Shown here: positions 1-54,295 of the stretch, piece by piece
How positions within the stretch are numbered: the stretch's first letter is position 1
Layout of the letters: every line of letters starts with the position of its first letter
Source of the DNA: a bacterium
Lineage (GTDB): Bacteria; Armatimonadota; Zipacnadia; Zipacnadales; UBA11051
Direction of reading: 5' to 3'
DNA: 54,295 nt
NCBI GenBank assembly: GCA_030604405.1
Contig: JAUVVY010000027.1
Location: 1 to 54,295, forward strand
Made by a program: the position numbers and the translations under genes
Notes under the pieces: generated by a model
What the model was told of the DNA's origin: nothing
Databases searched by the model: none
The model's input: the letters and a program-made list of their open reading frames with translations, nothing else

Positions 1-114
1 CGAGCGCGAAAAACTGCGAGCTCTAATCAAGATTTACGAAACGACCAACGATATCGACCAAGTCTTTGCTGCCGCCGGCTGTGCATAGAACCTACAAAAT
101 TTGCATAACTACAG
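1..114 (+). mobile_element. Right end of an insertion sequence (body outside window)
   Basis: Bases 100-114 are the reverse complement of CTGTAGTTATGCAAA, the same 15 bp that opens the element at 54188. The same 13-bp core also ends the 274-bp MITE at 45334-45607. A reading frame stops 26 bp before the tip, which is the usual distance between a transposase stop and an IS end. The flank just outside (115-125) reads ttccagcccga, the right half of the GTCGGGCT-TCC-AGCCCGAC hairpin found elsewhere in the window. The direct repeat ttcca also precedes the element at 54188. That this is an IS is inferred from ends, flanks and the partial gene; the IS family is not assigned. Confidence 0.6.
2..88 (+). 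CDS. C-terminal fragment, candidate transposase
   Basis: An open frame enters the window at its first bases and stops at the TAG at 86-88. The visible 28 residues end in ...DQVFAAAGCA. I do not recognise the family from this tail. The transposase call rests only on position: the stop lies 26 bp inside an IS-like terminal repeat, and the matching left end at 54188 is followed by a gene start. It could instead be the end of an unrelated gene that the repeat happens to follow. Confidence 0.4.
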   Translation, partial: EREKLRALIKIYETTNDIDQVFAAAGCA

Positions 115-156
115 TTCCAGCCCGAGGTCGTTGAAACACCAAGACCGGAATGACCC

Positions 157-4989: not shown

Positions 4990-5345
4990 CCCGGTGATTG
5001 CTGATCCTGTTTCGTTCTCGCACACGTTACATCCGCCCGCTAAGAGCAAGTCCAGCGCCTGGCTCCGCCATCCCGAATATCATCACGTGGAATGCCTTTG
5101 GTTAATCCCACGGCTGGGCCATCCGAAGAATTATCCCGCGCCTTGGGCATCGCAAGAATTATCCCGTGCCTCGGGCATCGCAATAATTATCCCGTGGGTC
5201 GGGCTTCCAGCCCGACTCCGTAGGAGTGGGTGAAGTGGGTGAGAAACCCGATTTTGCAAAAAAGCAGTTTCCTCTGGGAGCAGGTACTCGCCACCGGGGC
5301 GGCGAATGTACGAATTGATTGACCCACTCCGGCAGGTGATCGCGA
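4990..5345. other. Intergenic region with REP-like array
   Basis: A 356-bp gap between two plus-strand genes. The left half shows no gene or clear terminator. The centre holds a four-unit array of a 28-bp repeat ending in a perfect hairpin (listed separately). The last 60 bases carry AGGTGA seven bases before the next ATG, a good ribosome binding site. No promoter of convincing quality is seen. Confidence 0.6.
5105..5216. repeat. Four tandem 28-bp units ending in GTCGGGCT hairpin
   Basis: Units lie at 5105-5132, 5133-5160, 5161-5188 and 5189-5216, each beginning ATCCC. The last unit ends in the perfect hairpin GTCGGGCT-TCC-AGCCCGAC (5198-5216, 8-bp stem, 3-base loop). The same unit and terminal hairpin recur at 37679-37756, and again at the right end of the window, where an IS end replaces the right half of the hairpin. 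The units abut without spacers, so this is not a CRISPR. Confidence 0.85.
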
Positions 5346-24557: not shown

Positions 24558-24733
24558 CTGTAGTTATGCAGATTTCAAGCAAGTATAGTTTCGGGCTAAT
24601 GGCCTGCAGTCGTTAGTCGTAATGGAGGGGCCGTGTCGAGCATCGGACGACACTGTCGTCCGATGGGAGCCCGGCCCACGCACAACGCTATCAAGGCAAG
24701 GTCGCCACACCCAAACGGCCAACGGCAACGGCT
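24558..24733 (+). mobile_element. MITE relic lacking its right end
   Basis: CTGTAGTTATGCAGATTT (24558-24575) is identical to the 18-bp terminal repeat of the MITE at 45334. Internal blocks also match that MITE: ggggccgtgtcgagc, cggcccacg, acgctatc, and ccacaccca followed by aacggct. The left flank is gtcgggct-tgcta, so it entered the same hairpin type. No matching right terminal repeat follows; a REP palindrome begins where the right part should be. Confidence 0.7.
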
Positions 24734-24907
24734 GGAAATTGGGGACTGTCACCTATTTCTCAGAGGAGTAGGACTGCAATTCACAGAAATCGCAAGAAAT
24801 GGGTGACTGTCCCCAATTTCCCGGGCTAATGGCCTGCAGTCGTTAGTCGTAATGGAGGGGCCGTGTCGAGCATCGGACGACAGTGTCGTCCGATGGGAGC
24901 CCGGCCC
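24592..24907. repeat. 86-bp direct repeat, two copies, each with a 25-bp palindrome
   Basis: Copies at 24592-24677 and 24822-24907 differ at one base. Each contains CATCGGACGACA-N-TGTCGTCCGATG (24641-24665 and 24871-24895), a perfect 12-bp stem around one base, and the single difference is that central base. The first copy lies inside the MITE relic. The second follows a REP palindrome, so one end of the relic was duplicated around an insertion or by template switching. Confidence 0.85.
24735..24820. repeat. Long inverted repeat of GGGGACTGTCACC type
   Basis: Arms 24735-24760 and 24795-24820 pair at 24 of 26 positions with a 34-base loop. The arm core ggggactgtcacc is typical of REP pairs associated with tyrosine transposases. 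No such transposase gene is in the window. Confidence 0.75.
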
Positions 24908-37572: not shown

Positions 37573-37882
37573 GAATCTGCCTCCCGGTGCGTGGCTGAAC
37601 TTGCGATCTGACTGCCGGTCCGAACTACCGCCTCAAACCGGCGTGTATGTCAACGTCTCTGCAAAGCCTACCAATAATGACCTTAGGCTTCCCAATAATC
37701 ATCCCACGGGTCGGGCTTCCCAATAATCATCCCGTGGGTCGGGCTTCCAGCCCGACTCCGTTATGTAGTTGGTGCGATAGGCGTCTCGCCTGTCGCGACC
37801 TTGGACAGCCTCAGGCTGGGCACCCACGCAAAGCATGGGTCACCCGACCTACGAATTCAATGATGCGTACTAGCTCGGCCGG
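37573..37882. other. Intergenic region between the two giant genes
   Basis: A 310-bp gap on the minus strand. It holds the second 28-bp REP array (listed separately), a GGCGTCTCGCC hairpin near 37780 and an ACCCACGC-aaa-GCATGGGT hairpin at 37822-37840 of the same type as 45650-45668. No T-run terminator or clear promoter is seen, so cotranscription of the giants is possible. Confidence 0.55.
37679..37756. repeat. 28-bp REP array ending in GTCGGGCT hairpin, copy 2
   Basis: A partial unit (37679-37700) and two full 28-bp units (37701-37728, 37729-37756), each of the form ATCCC-N-GTCGGGCTTCC. The last ends in the perfect GTCGGGCT-TCC-AGCCCGAC hairpin (37738-37756), unoccupied by an insertion here. 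The consensus is the same as at 5105-5216. Confidence 0.85.
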
Positions 37883-40800
37883 CTATCTACTCACCTGTAC
37901 CGGCACTAGCGCGCGTGTCTGCTGCCCGCTGTCGGTAGTCGCCACGATGCTGATGAGATACCTGCCGGCCGGCACCGTGGTGCCGCGAGTGCTGGTCAGG
38001 TCCCACAGCTCGGTATTTACGCCGCTGCTGGCCGGCTTGTCGGCGACCAGGTACTTGATCTGGCGCCCGCTGATGTTCATCACGCTGATACTGACATTCG
38101 CCGTCTGCGACAGCGTGTAGGTCAGTGCCACCTGGCCGCCTCGCGACATAGCTGCCGAGGCCGCCGATATCGCCAGGCTGCCCACGCTGCGCGGGCCGAT
38201 TTCGAGTTTGAAGCGCCGCGCCTGGCCCCCGGTCGCCTGGTAAGTGTATTGCTGCGTGGTGCGAGCGTAGGTCCGCTTGCCGCTAGCCGTATCCTCCAGC
38301 GTGACCTGCTTATCGGCCGGTACGCGCGACAGATCGAGCAGTGATATTGCCACCGCCACGTCGCCGATATCGGTGACTACCTCGAAGTCCCAGCTTTCCG
38401 TAGCGTCTGCACTGGCGCGCAGGTCGTAGCACAGCTTGCCGCCGTCAGGGCCGATGAAGTACAGATCAACGTGCGAGCCCGCTGGCGGTGGGTTGACCAG
38501 GCGACCTCCGCCCGGCAACCTCTCCGCCGCCTTCACTACGCCCGCCGCCGCACACGTATCCGCACGACCGCCGGCAGCAGCTTGCAGCGGGATCACGTAG
38601 TCACCGTCGGCCAGCACCAGCGGCGCCGTCTCCACAGCCGTCGGAGCCGTCAGCGGGTTGATACGCACCGTCCGTGCCGTGCTCGAGTTCATCCAGAAGC
38701 CCGCGCCCTCAGGCACCCTGTCGAGAATACCGAAGCCGTTTACGTCGGCCACGACACGGTAATCAGGCGGATCGGCATTCCGATCCCAGATGAAGCCGTA
38801 GTCCTTGACCGTGCCGCCAGGGGCGACACCAATCCTGGACCACGGCAGATCTGCCGGGTAGGGATTGCCGACCATCGTCCAGTCCGCCGCCAGTTGCAGG
38901 TCATGGCCGACACCGGTCGAGATCGGGGTGCCCGCGACATAGTTGGTCACTTCGGCAGCCGGATTTGTCCAGTAGCCGCGCCCGGCCCCAAGCTCCAGAA
39001 GCGGATGCTCGGGCGTCGCGTTGGTAATCCACTCTTCGTTCGCGCTATCCCAGCGCGCCACCGGAGTATTGGCGCCGAATGCCGCCCGGAAGTCCGTCGT
39101 CTCCGGACTGATAGGCACTGCGACCAGGCTCAGGCCGGCGGGCAGCACCACTTCATACAGCGGCACACCGATGAAGTTCACATCGGTCCTCTGGGTCATC
39201 AGCTCAACACTCTGTTTCAGCGGCTTGAACTGGTAGTCGCTCTTGGCCGGCGTCACTTCATAGGTGCCCTGCCTGAGCTGCTGGAAGACGTACAGGCCGG
39301 AGGCGCTGCTGAGCACTTCGGTAGATGCGCCGGTATCAGCGTTCCTGGCGGTGACCGCCACGGTCGCCATCCGGTCGCCGGTGGAGGTCTGGATGATGCC
39401 GCTGAGTGAATGGCTCTCGACTACGGCCATGAACTCCAGCGGGTCGGGGCTAAGCCCCGGACCAATTTCGATATCGGCAAGCGGCGGGACGAAGTCGAAG
39501 CCCTCCAGCACTGGCGCGATGTTGTACGTGCCGGCAGGTAGGTCCCTGAGCTGGAAAGTGCCATCGGCACCGGTGACCTGTGACTTGCCGCCGGCACTAA
39601 TCAGCGCCCCGGACTTGCCCACGCCGTTCTCGTCAACAACCTGGCCATCAATGTCATAGCCGAGCTGGCCGATGAAATTGATGCCGCCTTGATCCGGCGG
39701 TACTGACACCGCCATTTGCTGGGGCGTAAAGTACCAGCCTCGAAGCTCGGTGCGAACCTCATGCGTACCATCGGCCACGCCGGTGATAGTGTAGCTGCCG
39801 TCAGCGCCGGTTACGCCTTCCAGTTCCCCTGCGACTATTCTGACGCCGGCAATCGGGCTGTCGTCTGCCTGCAGCACCTGGCCGCTGATTATCGAGGTGG
39901 GCTCGCCCTCAACGACGAAGCTCCACGACTTGATCCTCGGGTTGTTCTGCAGGTCCCGGACGTTGACCTCAACGCGGACGTTTCGCAGATAGTCAAACTC
40001 CGCGTCGGGCGTGAATTCGACGGTCATGCGCTTCGTAGTTCCGCCTATTTCGATGGAGCCGGGCACGGCTGCTCCCGAAATCGTCACATCCACCTGGATC
40101 GAGCCCTGGTCCACGCCGGAACCATTGTCCTCCACCACGAAACTGATCGTGGTGTCGCGGCGCACACCGGTCTCTCCGGCACCAGGCTGCAAGTCGATGA
40201 CTACCGGCGCTTCCCCGTCTGTGGATGTCTCGGGGCCGGCGACGTTGGAATCCTCACTCTCATTGGACCCGTCATAGGCCCTGAGCATGTAGTACACCGC
40301 CACGCCGTCCGGCGCTGTCGTGTCGCGGAAGCTGCTCTCGTCGGCAAGAGCGGTCCCGACATACGGAGCTGCGAGCAGGGCCGGGGTGGTTGCGCGGTAG
40401 ATGTGATACTCGGTCACATCGTTCTGGCCGGCGCCGTCGTCAGGCGATAGCGTCCACGACACATCAAGCGTGGCGCCGAGGGCCGGATTGCTGACGGCTA
40501 CACCGCTGGGTGGCTGCGGCGGGATATTGTCCTTGGGCGTCACCGGCCCCTCCTCATTGGAGCGGTCGGACTCGGTGGCCGCATCGAAGGCCTTAACGAT
40601 GTAGTAGTACGCAACGTCAGTCACAGGCGGGTTCGTCGAAGCGGGCGCCGTGTCCTGAGCGTTGTAGGCCGCGGCCCCTGTGGCCGCCACGGTCACCACC
40701 GGTGTATCGCTGTATTGGCCCTGGGTTTGGGTGCGATAGACCCTATACTCCGTAACGTCGTCAGCGCCACCGCCATCGTCCCGGCTGGCGGAGAACTCGA

Positions 40801-43800
40801 TGTCTGTAGAGCCGCCGTTATCGTTCGGAGTATCCTGCACCAACAGGTTCAGCGGCTCTCCGGGCGGCTCGTCCACGACCGGCCCATTGTAGCGGTCGGG
40901 CGTGATGCCGGTAGTCGGCAGGCGCGCCCGATCGAGATCATCAGAAGCCAGGAAGAAGTAGGTGTGCGGTGTGCCCTCGATCAGATTCGAGATGCTGAAC
41001 TCGAAGGTCGCGCCGTCGGTATAGTCGTAGTCGTTGGGGTCAATCTTTGTCATGTCATGGCGCACGTCGTCTATGTAAACCCGCACGTACTGCGGCGGGT
41101 TGCCTGCAATACCGGCGAACCTGTCGGTGTCGGTATAGACTACTGTATAGGTGAAGGTGGTCTCGCGCCGACCGCTATTGGGGTCCAGTCCGGGCGGATT
41201 GTCGGGATCGGTGCCGTCGTCCTCAGGCAAAAAGTTCAGTGTCGGCGGCGTATTGTCAGCCACCGTCGGCCCGTATGCAAAGTCGTAATAGCCATCGTCG
41301 TTGCCGTCCGGCGGGTCGAGCGGATCGGGAGCCGGCTGCGGAACTATCGGCCCGCTGAAGATAAGCGGATCGCCCGGGTCGGTCTCCGGGAACCGGGCCT
41401 TGCCGTCAGAGGCCTGGGCGTAGAAGACGTGGTCGCCCTCGGACAGCTTCACTTCCGGCGTCCTGAACATCGCCCCGTCGGTATAGACAGTGTCCTCCGG
41501 CGGATCTGCCACCAGGTCCAGGACCATCTCGGGGTTCCCCGCGGTGCCGTCAATGCCGAGCCTGATCAGGGTTGGCGGATCATTCTCGTGATCCACGTAC
41601 GTTACGAAGAAGACAAAGCTGGTGGCCGTCGTGCCATCCGGGGCGTCCGGATCGGTACTCTGGGGTGTAAAGCGGAAATCTTCCAATTCCGGCGCACTGT
41701 TCTCACGCACCTCCGGCCCCTCGAAGTAGCCGGCCGTGGGATGGCGCACGGTCTCGCCTTCTGCTTTCACATTAGGGTCATCCGGGGAAAGCCAGGTTGC
41801 GCAGTCATCGGTGAATTCGAACCAGTAGCGGTGCACGCCCGGGCCCAACTCCACATTTGTCGCCGTATCGAAGACGTACTCGGCACCGTCACTGTAGTCC
41901 GTGTCGGTGACGTCTCCTGCCAACATTGTCCCCTCGAACCATTGCTCGATGCGGAACTGATCCCCTGAGGCCACACCGTCGGTAGAGAGGTTGGTGCCAG
42001 CCGCGAGAGTTATGGTGTTGCCAGTGTTGCCGGCGACGGCATAAGTATTGCCCGCTGCGGCGCCGGTCTGCATCGTGATGCTGAACGGTACTTCTACGTC
42101 AGACAGCGTGCCGTCATCGTACAAATCGCCGCTCCCGGTCACGTACGTCAGCAAGTTAACGCCAGTCACCTGGGCTATGGATGCCTGGAGCAGCGGGCTA
42201 CCGAATAAGTCCAGGTGGATCTTGGTGTGGAAGGGGCGGTCGCCGGTGGCATCGGGATTGAGCACTTCGCCGTTAATGTCGGCGTAATCAACTCGGAAAT
42301 GGTAGTTTTCACCGGCACGGCCCACGGCGGGATCTACCGACTGGCCGCCGAGCGTAGGTGGGCGGTTCACGCGGAACCAGTAGTAGTCCTCGCCCTCGGC
42401 CTCGTTCGCCTCTGTCACCGTCGGGACGCCGTACTGCCCTATCGTAGTCACGAAGCCGTCGTGGCCCGGATCGTAGATGTTGTAACCATTCGGCTGGTTA
42501 TACACCGGCGGACGGTTCGGGTAGGTCGTTGTCATGGTGCCGTCATTGGCGGCGAAGTAGTAGTTATAATCACCCGGCCCGCCGCCCCCAGGCAGTTGCT
42601 CCGGGGTGGCCTGGAACTGGAACACGCAGCCGTTACCCACCAGGTCGTAGCTGGTGTCCAGCGGGTCCATCTGCTCCATCGTATAGGCCGTCCAGGGAGC
42701 GCCCGGGTTCTGGCCGTCATCGTTCCGCCTGATGAAGATGCGGATCAAGGCCGGAGCGATATTCTCGGACTGCCAGTAGTTAATACGGAAGGTGAAGGTG
42801 CTCTGGTTGGTCCACTTGCCGCCCTTGAACGGCGTAGCGGCGGTTTCCGGATGGATGTTCACGTAGTTGGGCAGGATGGTGTCATCGTTGGTATAGCGCA
42901 TCGGAGGATTCGGCCCCGCGCCAGTCTCGGCAGGGAAGGGACTAGTGACGATGACGCCGCTAGCGTCAACCGGATCGGGATAAAAGTCGCTGTCGGGCTC
43001 TATCGTCCCGCTCGGGAAGTAGGGATGCGCCGACAATACCGGGTCAACCTTCGGGAACCGCGTCGGGTCCTGCGAATCGTACGGATAGCCCGAGCCGCCC
43101 GCCGCACCGTCGCTGTCGTCGTAGAGGGTATTCTCGCGGCTGACCTCAATGCTGCTTATTTCACGCCTGTCGAAGTTAACCCGGAACGGTCGTACCCGCT
43201 GATAGTCGTTGTACGCCCCGTCGCCCGGGCGTCCGACCTGCAACCAGTTATTGTTGCCGTTGCATGGGCTGAAGTCGTCACTCGCCAGGAATTCATAGAT
43301 ATGGCCGCCGGCAGCAAGCGCCACATAGTTGTTGGACATGGGCCGGCCGCGCAGATAGTCCAGAGAGCGACCAAGTTCATGTTCCCCGGCCGGATCGTAC
43401 GGGAACATGAAAATGTTCTCAAGGTAGCGCTTGTAGTCCGTGGGCATCAGGTCGTAATAGTAGATCATCCCGTCGTCGTAATTGTTATCGGACGGGTTCA
43501 ACTTGTACATGAAGCGCGGCCTGCTGCGGTCGCCGTCTATGATCAGGACGACGTGAGGATCCTGTTGCTCCCAGTTCTGATCCCAGCCAATGCGGTCGAG
43601 GCTGTGCCAGTCATCATACGGCCCATAGCCCCAACCGTCAATGCCGCGATCACTGTGCCGTTCCAGGAGTCCCGTATCGTAATTATACTCGACGAAGCAG
43701 TTGTGTCCCGGCGCTGAGCCCGGCGGCGGCACGCGAGTGCCGAATCGGGGCCGCAGGTTGCTGCTGGAGTTTCTTCTCGCATAACGGACCATGAAGCGAA

Positions 43801-44380
43801 AGCGGGAACTGCCAGTGCCGTCATCGGGCGCTATCTCCGCCGGAAAAACACCGAGCGGGTCCACTCCCGTGGCGTCGCCGCTGAACCACTGCAGGTAATC
43901 CTGGTTATCGCTGACGGTACACACGCTCCCGCTGACACGAACGGTGCTGCAGGCACTGCTGGTGCAAAACACGGCGGTGAATGTGAAGCTGAGGCGCGAC
44001 TCCCCCTCGTCCCATCCGGGAGTCGGCAGGTTGCCGATGACGCCTTGGTGCGGATTGCCCCAGATGTCATAGCCGGCAAACGGGCCGATGGTGTGGGTGT
44101 AGCCGCTTTGGCATACCCCCTCGTCAGTACCCACGCCGGGGTAGAGTGTGTACCCGCCGGCAGGGCAACTCAAAGTCAAGCTGGCTAACCACTCACTACT
44201 GGCGGGAACGGCTATAGCCCTGAAATAGCGCTCCGAGTTCGCCGAAGCACAGTTCGCATAGACGCCGGCCCCCGCGTATCCCAGCGTGAGCGTTCCGGCA
44301 AACGCAGCGCTTGAGCCTCCCAGAGCCAGGACGAATGAGAATAGGAGTGCAAGCAAGATACCCCTGTTCGGATGTTTCAC
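37883..44380 (-). CDS. Giant exported surface protein with FnIII and carboxypeptidase-regulatory-like repeats
   Basis: A 2165-residue exported protein. The signal peptide is about 1-28 (FVLALGGSSAAFA). The N-terminal 450 residues are Cys- and aromatic-rich and match no family I know. Residues about 690-1160 hold four loose repeats of a module with conserved FVVxYxDxE, YTDGAxF and YFxASDxxxxxxP. Two FnIII domains follow (about 1163-1387), then an Ig-like domain (1387-1493), three carboxypeptidase-regulatory-like repeats (about 1495-1744) and a 421-residue C-terminal module (1745-2165) ending in a FlgD-like domain. No protease or glycosidase motif is seen. Start is GTG 44380, nine bases after GGGAGG. 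A strong promoter lies about 200 bp upstream. Confidence 0.82.
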   Translation of the reverse strand: MKHPNRGILLALLFSFVLALGGSSAAFAGTLTLGYAGAGVYANCASANSERYFRAIAVPASSEWLASLTLSCPAGGYTLYPGVGTDEGVCQSGYTHTIGPFAGYDIWGNPHQGVIGNLPTPGWDEGESRLSFTFTAVFCTSSACSTVRVSGSVCTVSDNQDYLQWFSGDATGVDPLGVFPAEIAPDDGTGSSRFRFMVRYARRNSSSNLRPRFGTRVPPPGSAPGHNCFVEYNYDTGLLERHSDRGIDGWGYGPYDDWHSLDRIGWDQNWEQQDPHVVLIIDGDRSRPRFMYKLNPSDNNYDDGMIYYYDLMPTDYKRYLENIFMFPYDPAGEHELGRSLDYLRGRPMSNNYVALAAGGHIYEFLASDDFSPCNGNNNWLQVGRPGDGAYNDYQRVRPFRVNFDRREISSIEVSRENTLYDDSDGAAGGSGYPYDSQDPTRFPKVDPVLSAHPYFPSGTIEPDSDFYPDPVDASGVIVTSPFPAETGAGPNPPMRYTNDDTILPNYVNIHPETAATPFKGGKWTNQSTFTFRINYWQSENIAPALIRIFIRRNDDGQNPGAPWTAYTMEQMDPLDTSYDLVGNGCVFQFQATPEQLPGGGGPGDYNYYFAANDGTMTTTYPNRPPVYNQPNGYNIYDPGHDGFVTTIGQYGVPTVTEANEAEGEDYYWFRVNRPPTLGGQSVDPAVGRAGENYHFRVDYADINGEVLNPDATGDRPFHTKIHLDLFGSPLLQASIAQVTGVNLLTYVTGSGDLYDDGTLSDVEVPFSITMQTGAAAGNTYAVAGNTGNTITLAAGTNLSTDGVASGDQFRIEQWFEGTMLAGDVTDTDYSDGAEYVFDTATNVELGPGVHRYWFEFTDDCATWLSPDDPNVKAEGETVRHPTAGYFEGPEVRENSAPELEDFRFTPQSTDPDAPDGTTATSFVFFVTYVDHENDPPTLIRLGIDGTAGNPEMVLDLVADPPEDTVYTDGAMFRTPEVKLSEGDHVFYAQASDGKARFPETDPGDPLIFSGPIVPQPAPDPLDPPDGNDDGYYDFAYGPTVADNTPPTLNFLPEDDGTDPDNPPGLDPNSGRRETTFTYTVVYTDTDRFAGIAGNPPQYVRVYIDDVRHDMTKIDPNDYDYTDGATFEFSISNLIEGTPHTYFFLASDDLDRARLPTTGITPDRYNGPVVDEPPGEPLNLLVQDTPNDNGGSTDIEFSASRDDGGGADDVTEYRVYRTQTQGQYSDTPVVTVAATGAAAYNAQDTAPASTNPPVTDVAYYYIVKAFDAATESDRSNEEGPVTPKDNIPPQPPSGVAVSNPALGATLDVSWTLSPDDGAGQNDVTEYHIYRATTPALLAAPYVGTALADESSFRDTTAPDGVAVYYMLRAYDGSNESEDSNVAGPETSTDGEAPVVIDLQPGAGETGVRRDTTISFVVEDNGSGVDQGSIQVDVTISGAAVPGSIEIGGTTKRMTVEFTPDAEFDYLRNVRVEVNVRDLQNNPRIKSWSFVVEGEPTSIISGQVLQADDSPIAGVRIVAGELEGVTGADGSYTITGVADGTHEVRTELRGWYFTPQQMAVSVPPDQGGINFIGQLGYDIDGQVVDENGVGKSGALISAGGKSQVTGADGTFQLRDLPAGTYNIAPVLEGFDFVPPLADIEIGPGLSPDPLEFMAVVESHSLSGIIQTSTGDRMATVAVTARNADTGASTEVLSSASGLYVFQQLRQGTYEVTPAKSDYQFKPLKQSVELMTQRTDVNFIGVPLYEVVLPAGLSLVAVPISPETTDFRAAFGANTPVARWDSANEEWITNATPEHPLLELGAGRGYWTNPAAEVTNYVAGTPISTGVGHDLQLAADWTMVGNPYPADLPWSRIGVAPGGTVKDYGFIWDRNADPPDYRVVADVNGFGILDRVPEGAGFWMNSSTARTVRINPLTAPTAVETAPLVLADGDYVIPLQAAAGGRADTCAAAGVVKAAERLPGGGRLVNPPPAGSHVDLYFIGPDGGKLCYDLRASADATESWDFEVVTDIGDVAVAISLLDLSRVPADKQVTLEDTASGKRTYARTTQQYTYQATGGQARRFKLEIGPRSVGSLAISAASAAMSRGGQVALTYTLSQTANVSISVMNISGRQIKYLVADKPASSGVNTELWDLTSTRGTTVPAGRYLISIVATTDSGQQTRALVPVQVSR

Positions 44381-44655: not shown

Positions 44656-45255
44656 TCACACAGATTCGCACGCTGCTGTTACACCTTCGAGTCGCAACAG
44701 GGCCAGCTTTTGCTCCGTGCCGCCGCCGAAGCCGACCATGCTACCGTCGCTACCGATTACCCGGTGACATGGCACCAGCAGTGCGACCGGGTTATTTGCC
44801 ATCGCCTGACCGACAGCGCGGCTGGCCTGGGGACTTCCGGCTGCGGCGGCCAGTTCGGCATAAGAGCACGTCTCGCCCCAGGGCATTGACTGGGCCTCAT
44901 GCAGAATCCTAGCCCGAAAGCCGCTGACCTCCCGCAGGTCAACAGGAAGGTCGAATTGCTTGACCTGACCGGAAAAATAGGCCCGCACCTGCCAGTAAGT
45001 CCGGCATAAGAGCGGGCTCCATGAGAAACGCCATGTATGCGCCGGCTGCAGCTCCTGCATGAGCTGTGTGAGCGAGGGTCCAGGCAGCAGCAGGCGGGTG
45101 ATGCCGAGGTCTGACGCGGCCAAGCCGATCCAGCCGCTCAGCAAGGGGCTGTGGCAAGACGCGATTCGAGGCAGCCAGCCGAACACGAAGCCGCATTGCG
45201 GCCCGTTTTCGGCTTCATTTTCGTGGTAATTTGTGACAGCGCCCTGATCTGTCAT
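44656..45255 (-). CDS. ogt: Methylated-DNA-protein-cysteine methyltransferase
   Basis: Suicide DNA repair enzyme that transfers the methyl group from O6-methylguanine (or O4-methylthymine) to its own cysteine. The active site PCHRV places the acceptor at C163. The helix-turn-helix with the finger arginine is in SYAELAAAAGSPQASRAVGQAMANNP, and FGGG.EQKLALLRLEG closes the domain. At 199 residues it is the Ogt/AdaB size with a less conserved N-terminal domain. The ATG at 45255 has only a weak site (CAGGGA), so the start could lie a little downstream. It is a single-gene unit; its 3' end abuts the tandem repeat of the giant-gene promoter. Confidence 0.93.
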   Translation of the reverse strand: MTDQGAVTNYHENEAENGPQCGFVFGWLPRIASCHSPLLSGWIGLAASDLGITRLLLPGPSLTQLMQELQPAHTWRFSWSPLLCRTYWQVRAYFSGQVKQFDLPVDLREVSGFRARILHEAQSMPWGETCSYAELAAAAGSPQASRAVGQAMANNPVALLVPCHRVIGSDGSMVGFGGGTEQKLALLRLEGVTAACESV

Positions 45256-45333
45256 GCGGTGTTCCCTGGAGCGGCATGATATGGCCTCCCCACCGCCAGA
45301 TCAGACGTTACACAAGGCCTTGCAGGCTAACTA

Positions 45334-45607
45334 CTGTAGTTATGCAGATTTCTAATCGTAAAAGGAGTTTAGAGCTTTGCAAGCGTCTCCCATTACACGT
45401 TGTGCTGCTGTTGGAAGGGCCGTGTCGAGCCGGGTACCCGCTGCGCAGCAGTGGGTGAAGCTTGTCGAACTGCTGGGAGGCCGGCCCACGCCAGACGCTA
45501 TCCTGGCGAGGTCCCCACACCCAAGCGCCAAACGACAACGGCTTACGACTAACGACGCCACAGCGCCGCTCTACAGCTTAAGTTACCCAAAATCTGCATA
45601 ACTACAG
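45334..45607. mobile_element. Complete 274-bp MITE with 18-bp TIRs and TAACTA target duplication
   Basis: The terminal inverted repeats CTGTAGTTATGCAGATTT (45334-45351) and its exact complement (45590-45607) bound a 274-bp element. The 6-bp direct repeat taacta flanks it at 45328-45333 and 45608-45613. Outside lie ggc on the left and gcccgac on the right, the two stem halves of a REP-like hairpin, so insertion was in the loop. The interior has no usable gene and carries a hairpin similar to other local palindromes. Its first 13 bp equal the ends of the IS at both window borders, which identifies the probable autonomous partner. Confidence 0.88.
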
Positions 45608-45649
45608 TAACTAGCCCGACGCCGTTGCCGTTCTCCCCTCTCCCGGGTA

Positions 45650-45764: not shown

Positions 45765-46439
45765 TTACTCAGTGACGCTCGTCGGGCTCCAGAAGGTCGG
45801 CTGGTCGAGGCCTTCTTCCCGACCCCACTTGGCATGCCCGTCGGCGTATCCCCAGTTGCAGCCGTCGTTGTGGCGTTGTGGCCGGCCGATCGCGGTGAAG
45901 TTGTTGTTCGCTGGGTCCTCGGTGCCAGCCGCTACCATCGTGCCAACAGCATCGCCAGGCACAAAGCAGATGTCGTTGCCCGGATCGTTGACCCACCACT
46001 CGCTGCCGCCGGAGCTGTTGGTCACTCCCAGGCACTCAGGCGGCACGTCGCCGATCACGATCTTGGAGGCTGAATCAAAGAATGAACCTTCCGAGATGCC
46101 GGAGCACAGGTAGTTAAGACCATAGCCGATGTAGCGGTCCTTGCGATCGGGGCAGCGCAAAATCTGCCTGTTGTGCGTGTAAGAGTAGATAGCGTCGTGC
46201 CAGAATGCCCCAGCACCATTCAGTCCGAAGGGCAACTGTTCGTCGGCATCCTGGACGTACATTTTTATCGCCAGTACGATCTGTTTCACGTTCGATATGC
46301 ATGCTGTCTGGCGAGCCTTGGCTCTGGCCCGCGCGAACACCGGCATCAGCATCGAGGCCAGAATTGAGATGATGGCGATCACCACCAGAAGTTCGATCAG
46401 CGTGAAGCCTGCCCGCCTTGGTGTCGTCTTTGGGCGCAT
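45765..46439 (-). CDS. Type II pseudopilin with H-X9-DG C-terminal signature
   Basis: A 224-residue protein with a prepilin peptidase site GFTLIELLVVIAI (cleavage after G11, E16 being position 5 of the mature form). The hydrophobic helix is followed by a globular domain ending HNDGCNWGYADGHAKW, the H-X9-DG signature of DUF1559-like pseudopilins common in Planctomycetes, Lentisphaerae and Armatimonadetes. These assemble through type II secretion or pilus machinery and may bind substrates at the surface. ATG 46437-46439 has AGGAGGT nine bases upstream; the frame is open 27 codons further without such a site. TATAAT at 46596-46601 (minus strand) could be its -10. No secretion machinery is in the window. 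Confidence 0.92.
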   Translation of the reverse strand: MRPKTTPRRAGFTLIELLVVIAIISILASMLMPVFARARAKARQTACISNVKQIVLAIKMYVQDADEQLPFGLNGAGAFWHDAIYSYTHNRQILRCPDRKDRYIGYGLNYLCSGISEGSFFDSASKIVIGDVPPECLGVTNSSGGSEWWVNDPGNDICFVPGDAVGTMVAAGTEDPANNNFTAIGRPQRHNDGCNWGYADGHAKWGREEGLDQPTFWSPTSVTE

Positions 46440-46702
46440 CTTGATGTTACCTCCTGAGTGCTCTGATAAGCACCACTTCGTGTGTGAATTCTCCAGCGAC
46501 CCACCAGTCGTAACAGCCACAGTTTCCAGGCCTCACACACTGCCCCGCCTCGCCGCGGTGCACCGTGTACTGTCCGAAGCTGAGCACATCGTGCTATTAT
46601 ATTATTCCACACTACGGCCGCCGCAAACCTCTATCCTTAATACAGACGAAGCTATCAGGTCCTATGTTTCGTCTTTTTTGCGGCGCTGATGATATTCTAC
46701 AC

Positions 46703-54118: not shown

Positions 54119-54187
54119 TGCCTTGGGCTTCCCTAATATAGTCGCGTGGCTCGGGCATCCCAAAAAAACCCGTGGGTCGGGCTTCCA
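54119..54187. repeat. 28-bp REP array, interrupted by an IS end, copy 3
   Basis: Units of the ATCCCGTGGGTCGGGCTTCC type run from about 54119, with a full 28-bp unit at 54141-54168. The last reads ...gtgggtcgggcttcca and is then cut by CTGTAG of the element at 54188. The missing half AGCCCGA(C) appears beside the matching right end at the start of the window. Copy 1 is at 5105-5216 and copy 2 at 37679-37756. Confidence 0.8.
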
Positions 54188-54295
54188 CTGTAGTTATGCA
54201 AAAAATTGTTGGTAGAAGCAAGATAAGAGGGGGCATATGGCGAACACAGGCTTAAATGCAGCAACATTCAATGCCGAGCTCGCCAAGGATGCCGC
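54188..54295 (+). mobile_element. Left end of an insertion sequence (continues past window)
   Basis: Starts CTGTAGTTATGCAAA, identical over 15 bp to the complement of the right end at 100-114, and continues with a T/G-rich segment that matches imperfectly to about 25 bp. A gene starts 49 bp inside. The flank ttcca (54183-54187) equals the flank at 115-119, consistent with a 5-bp duplication of the hairpin loop. Confidence 0.6.
54237..54295 (+). CDS. N-terminal fragment, candidate transposase
   Basis: An ATG stands six bases after AGAGG and opens a frame of 19 complete codons that runs off the window (MANTGLNAATFNAELAKDA). The family is not recognisable from this stretch. It is taken as the transposase of the element whose left terminal repeat is 49 bp upstream. 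Confidence 0.45.
   Translation, partial: MANTGLNAATFNAELAKDA

Follow-up and report, generated by a model that had tools for sequence, protein, structure and literature searches.

Targeting of REPs has been described for five IS families, with insertion at the palindrome axis reported for ISPsy8 and ISRm22 (Tobes and Pareja, PMC1525189), and IS481 has been added to the REP-targeting families (PMC11708052). The closest described system is ISRm22 of Sinorhizobium meliloti (IS4 family, subgroup IS4Sa), all copies of which are located in REPs, at the palindrome axis, and are flanked by 6-bp direct repeats (PMC1525189, PMC2266710). ISPsy8, IS1397 and ISKpn1 of the IS3 family and IS621, ISPpu9/10 and ISPa11 of the IS110 family are likewise highly selective for one point of a host REP (PMC1525189).

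The MITE family described here belongs to the same REP-targeting class: nearly all of its copies are located at one point of a REP. The host is an Armatimonadota ("Ca. Zipacnadia"-like) marine-sediment bacterium with a genome of 4.37 Mb (G000). The window, i.e., the whole stretch of DNA that was analysed, comprises the 54,295 nucleotides of contig JAUVVY010000027.1.

The 274-bp element and its family

The element at 45334-45607 is a MITE: it is short (274 bp), non-coding (no ORF of at least 120 aa inside), bounded by perfect 18-bp terminal inverted repeats (TIRs) as seen by sequence inspection, flanked on both sides by a perfect 6-bp target duplication, TAACTA, and its ends are common to a parent IS. 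Regarding size, TIRs and duplication, the coordinates and sequences of the original prediction were matched exactly. The features of the locus are as follows.

45334-45607 (+): MITE, non-coding, 274 bp (TIRs, duplication, genome-wide relatives)
45334-45351 (+): left TIR, CTGTAGTTATGCAGATTT (sequence)
45590-45607 (-): right TIR, perfect copy (sequence)
45328-45333 (no strand): target duplication TAACTA, left copy (sequence)
45608-45613 (no strand): target duplication TAACTA, right copy (sequence)
45324-45327 (+): left stem remnant AGGC, eroded, preceded by bases conserved with the congener G001 (flank comparison, pairing, folding)
45614-45632 (+): right REP half, GCCCGACGCCGTTGCCGTT (recurs on the 3' side of other REPs)

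The TIR sequence has four matches in the window versus 0.02 expected by chance, and relatives of the element, of full or partial length, are present at dozens of genomic sites. The element sits between the ORFs 44656-45255 (methyltransferase-like, MGMT-type, as judged by eye) and 45765-46520 (pilin-like). Elsewhere in the window, 37883-44380 (minus strand) encodes a protein of 2165 aa predicted, on inspection by eye, to be secreted and to contain repeats of fibronectin-like or carboxypeptidase-regulatory-like type.

The 13-base end CTGTAGTTATGCA was found in 63 exact copies in the own genome and in none in the reversed control, and the 18-mer end with up to 3 mismatches at 168 places (about 160 near copies) versus 6 in the reversed control. 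Among the 60 relatives examined, two congeners have the 13-base end, which is nearly absent from the others; in viral contigs, the end sequence gave three chance matches, none of them with the hairpin. These ends are common to several MITE types and to the parent IS. One further end in the window, for which no partner end was found, belongs to another element.

24558-24575 (+): one end of a second element, which is composite or truncated, directly adjoining the REP half GTCGGGCTTGCTA (TIR search)

Within a composite MITE copy, positions 24734-24821 contain a nested element whose 27-bp inverted arms (GGAAATTGGGGACTGTCACC...) are imperfect; an 86-bp direct repeat, near-identical in its two copies (24592-24677 and 24822-24907), borders this element on either side. 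One MITE together with its 30-base flank is identical in bins of two different families (L093 in G034:C86 and L099 in G001:C270), probably because a single contig was assigned to both bins or because of contamination from the same site in the sediment. At L216, a pair spaced by 1.8 kb was considered as a full IS and rejected, as separate MITEs flank an unrelated gene there.

Target site and duplications

The target is the REP hairpin GTCGGGCT-TCC-AGCCCGAC, the first stem half of which is seen as GGGC or GGGT ending 5 or 6 nt upstream of the element ends. Regarding the 62 distinct junctions of the own genome, which were chosen by exact end sequence only and not by flank, GGGC or GGGT occurred at exactly 5 or 6 nt upstream in 58, whereas the background was 2.2%. 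GGGC was found at 5 nt in 41 junctions and at 6 nt in 15, and GGGT at 5 nt in two, while one further junction had its motif at 8 nt; the three junctions with neither motif include the copy at 45334-45607 (AGGC) and one CAGGC site. The longer motif CGGGCT was present at 52 of the 62 junctions (background 0.19%). Most copies in the two congeners also have the hairpin half at a constant distance, whereas unrelated genomes that contain the same end-like string never showed the half-hairpin; the latter come from a collection-wide contig scan with a short pattern, most matches of which were due to chance and which served as negative control. These observations bear out the preference for hairpin loops, which had originally been inferred from several insertions.

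Insertions invariably fall between one half of the stem and the other. The sequence outside the hairpin varies from copy to copy, and both orientations relative to the REP occur (10/6 among left ends, 5/8 among right ends). Empty hairpins TCGGGCTNNNAGCCCGA were counted 73 times in G000 and 95 and 12 times in the congeners G001 and G002, respectively, with few or none in most other genomes; two are located in the window.

5199-5215 (no strand): empty REP hairpin TCGGGCTTCCAGCCCGA (hairpin search)
37739-37755 (no strand): empty REP hairpin TCGGGCTTCCAGCCCGA (hairpin search)

The hairpin is a GTAG-type REP with a RAYT-like Y1 gene adjoining two copies. In many copies GTAG or GTGG precedes the stem (cgcGTAG/GTGG-GTCGGGCT...AGCCCGAC), and an ORF of about 235 aa with a Y1_Tnp domain (40.3 bits) lies about 150 bp from two REPs. 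A 7-9-bp stem after GTAG or GTGG and the proximity of a Y1 gene are features shared with GTAG REPs and REPtrons (PMC3733652, PMC8266576); the present host is a member of the Armatimonadota, which are absent from the phyla given for GTAG repeats in PMC3733652. At 5113-5221 and 37681-37761 of the window, short tandem degenerate REP-like units (gggcatcgcaagaattatcccgtg...) lead to an intact REP, as though REPs were formed or degenerated in clusters.

The flanks of the copy at 45334-45607, which had been taken for the two stem halves of the hairpin, agree with that claim on the right side, where GCCCGAC(GCCGTTGCCGTT) represents the full REP half, but hardly on the left, where ...TTGC-AGGC provides a stem of only 3-4 bases; the claim holds for nearly all other copies in the genome. 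In the restored site 3 bp pair outside the duplication (4 of the 8 first positions), the hairpin fold is not formed, and the folding energy of -3.2 kcal/mol is no better than that of shuffles, whereas intact REPs reach -9.8 to -10.5 kcal/mol. In G001 the left flank is kept up to AAGGCCTCGCAGG, so that these bases are not REP sequence. The copy occupies one of the three worst sites genome-wide, with AGGCT as all that stays of the left stem. The check on relatives that had been suggested yielded the half-hairpin at most congener sites and the empty hairpins counted above, but no clean orthologous empty site in G001 for this copy: the flanking sequences can be aligned as far as the insertion point (88-90%), but the intergenic stretch there differs. 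Taken by itself, the short left stem would fit a chance inverted repeat beside a GC-rich palindrome, an explanation of virtually no probability that is refuted by the genome-wide junction statistics and the end counts.

Perfect duplications of at least 4 bp were found in eleven two-ended copies, measuring 5 or 6 bp in ten and 4 bp in one. In eight of the nine perfect cases at recognisable sites the duplication comprises the entire loop, TTCCA/TGGAA (5 bp) or TTTCTA/TAACTA (6 bp). The 5-bp duplications are those of five full-stem copies at GGGC-5-GCCC sites and of L106, in which the right stem is eroded; those of 6 bp in 6-nt loops belong to L057 and to the copy at 45334-45607. Three copies are exceptions: in L006 only 5 bp of a 6-nt loop are duplicated, L096 has a duplication of 4 bp at a weak site, and L004 one of 6 bp without a hairpin.

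Many other two-ended copies show near-duplications, in which TTTCTA at one flank faces TTTCCA at the opposite one, or carry two 5' or two 3' REP halves. Such mismatched or mixed flanks are attributed to recombination between copies, as argued for ISRm22 (PMC1525189), some hybrid repeats of which have been ascribed to the same process (PMC1525189, PMC2266710). Among the two-ended copies listed, the differing target copy is mostly the GTAG-side one, with TTTCTA versus TTTCCA at least 5 times and the reverse never.

The Y1 gene beside the REPs and the copies with two 5' or two 3' halves, a pattern expected from recombination, might suggest that MITE and REP halves spread as a unit, by the Y1 (RAYT) transposase of the REP or by recombination. 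This is very improbable, as the sequence beyond the hairpin differs between copies, several MITE types and the parent IS have the same junction, both orientations are present and perfect duplications exist; the mixed flanks are accounted for by recombination between copies, as for ISRm22.

The parent IS and the mode of insertion

The parent IS is known from its two ends only, its interior not being assembled. A total of 32 contig ends lie inside it (18 left, 14 right), with coding sequence next to the ends, and the 18 left ends indicate at least 18 copies. Left ends read CTGTAGTTATGCAAAAAATTG..., with an ORF MANTGLNAATFNAELAKDAADETVF..., and right ends terminate the reading frame with ...QKEAEREKLRALIKIYETTNDIDQVFAAAGCA and a stop; the start of the ORF lies close to one end of the element and its stop close to the opposite end. 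The right end of the IS begins CTGTAGTTATGCAAATTT, fitting the MITE end, and the left end is CTGTAGTTATGCAAAAAA. Parent IS junctions carry the REP halves of the MITEs in mixed orientation. The contig of the window starts and stops inside two such copies.

1-114 (+): parent IS right end, contig-cut, with transposase C-terminus ...EREKLRALIKIYETTNDIDQVFAAAGCA and stop at 2-88 (+) and TIR at 97-114 (contig-end comparison)
115-125 (+): REP half TTCCAGCCCGA beside the parent IS right end (junction sequence)
54177-54187 (+): REP half TCGGGCTTCCA beside the parent IS left end (junction sequence)
54188-54295 (+): left end of another parent IS copy, contig-cut, with TIR and ORF from 54237, MANTGLNAATFNAELAKDA... 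(contig-end comparison)

The interior was not found in the own genome, the congeners, the phylum or viral contigs, and a profile search with the two terminal peptides returned nothing relevant. G017 contains a single-copy relative with near-identical ends (CTGTAGTCATGCGTTTT), an IS that encodes a 404-aa transposase matching DDE_5 (E 6e-25) and the NCBIfam IS701 model (186 bits, cut-off 150). A stretch of 28 aa at the C-terminus of this protein is 50% identical to the parent IS, a weak match (scan E 1e-3 per genome, 291 genomes); a PF13546 domain was not found in the genus. The G017 element makes an IS701/IS4-type enzyme the best lead for the parent IS, not a fact.

The reading preferred here, with a probability of roughly 0.8, is that the MITE and its parent IS insert at the centre of the REP palindrome and that two DDE subunits read its half-sites. 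The MITE would be a non-coding passenger with the ends of the parent IS and moved by it in trans; the parent, with a putatively IS701/IS4-like transposase, and several MITE types would insert at the centre of the GTAG-type palindrome 5'-GTCGGGC/TTCCA/GCCCGAC. Most likely, the two DDE transposase subunits each recognise a GGGCT half-site, one per strand, and would cut after GGGC, with the result that the bases between the cuts, 5 or 6 according to loop length, become duplicated. What the enzyme recognises would be the sequence of the half-sites and not an extruded cruciform. Points against this reading are the unassembled parent transposase, the negative search for PF13546 in the genus, the weakness of the C-terminal match, the typical IS701 repeat length of 4 bp, which the family does not show, the mixed flanks, the exceptional copies L004, L006 and L096, and the poor hairpin at 45334-45607.

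A rather unlikely alternative is that a DDE transposase cuts an extruded REP hairpin or cruciform at the stem-loop junction on both strands, with the loop becoming the duplication and the MITE population confined to such structures. The agreement of duplication with loop length (5 or 6) in eight of nine copies and the constant position between the stem halves are in line with it, whereas the 5-bp duplication of L006 in a 6-nt loop and the barely folding site at 45334-45607 are not. Evidence against it also comes from the loops, which between GGGC and GCCC are TTCCA, TTTCCA, TTTCTA or ATCCT. Among the first empty REP-type CGGGC hairpins of the genome, those listed for contigs C1-C16, 13 of 33 have the ATCCT loop and 20 of 33 T-type loops, whereas A follows GGGC in only 1 of the 59 GGGY junctions (Fisher, 2.7e-6, versus the 13 of 33). 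As ATCCT hairpins have the same stem and the same loop length as those with TTCCA and are almost unused, shape alone is insufficient, and the sequence comparison suggests that base sequence matters as well as shape for target choice; alternatively, the spread of ATCCT hairpins may be more recent than most of the insertions. CGGGC-ATCCT-GCCCG (for example at C1:44472 and C6:97249 of G000) is a second abundant hairpin class with the shape of the target, almost free of insertions. Used and unused classes, one base pair apart beside the loop, provide a natural test set together with the 5- and 6-nt loops.

Comparison with known systems

To the original prediction, family and target looked undescribed. 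This is plausible, but insertion at a REP axis as such was already known (PMC1525189). In the open literature searched, a REP-targeting MITE swarm, the present element family, its phylum and a duplication following loop length were not found, which is weak evidence; REP-targeting ISs are known, and a MITE swarm targeting REPs and the present family look new. Filled and empty sites within one genome allow asking what a transposase reads in a palindrome, be it sequence, shape or both.

ISRm22, likened here by its published description, differs in host phylum and REP and in its 9-10 copies, with no MITE swarm reported. The REP-targeting ISs of the IS3 family have two ORFs, with 3-bp repeats in ISPsy8, and those of the IS110 family mostly have no terminal inverted repeats, with 2-bp repeats in ISPpu9/10 (PMC1525189), whereas the present family has 18-bp TIRs and 5-6-bp repeats. 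The IS701 family (DDE, a relative of IS4), to which the transposase of the G017 relative with near-identical ends belongs by type, almost always generates repeats of exactly 4 bp, and part of it has the ends ---YACT-Y--YR (PMC2266710); the present family, with 5-6 bp and CTGTAGTTATGCA, departs from this 4-bp rule. Loop targeting of REPs is known from a few ISs elsewhere, and its strictness here is unusual. As safe landing sites, REPs have hitherto been associated with a handful of ISs of about ten copies or fewer each, whereas in the present genome dozens of MITEs and at least 18 parent copies are located on the same few REP bases.
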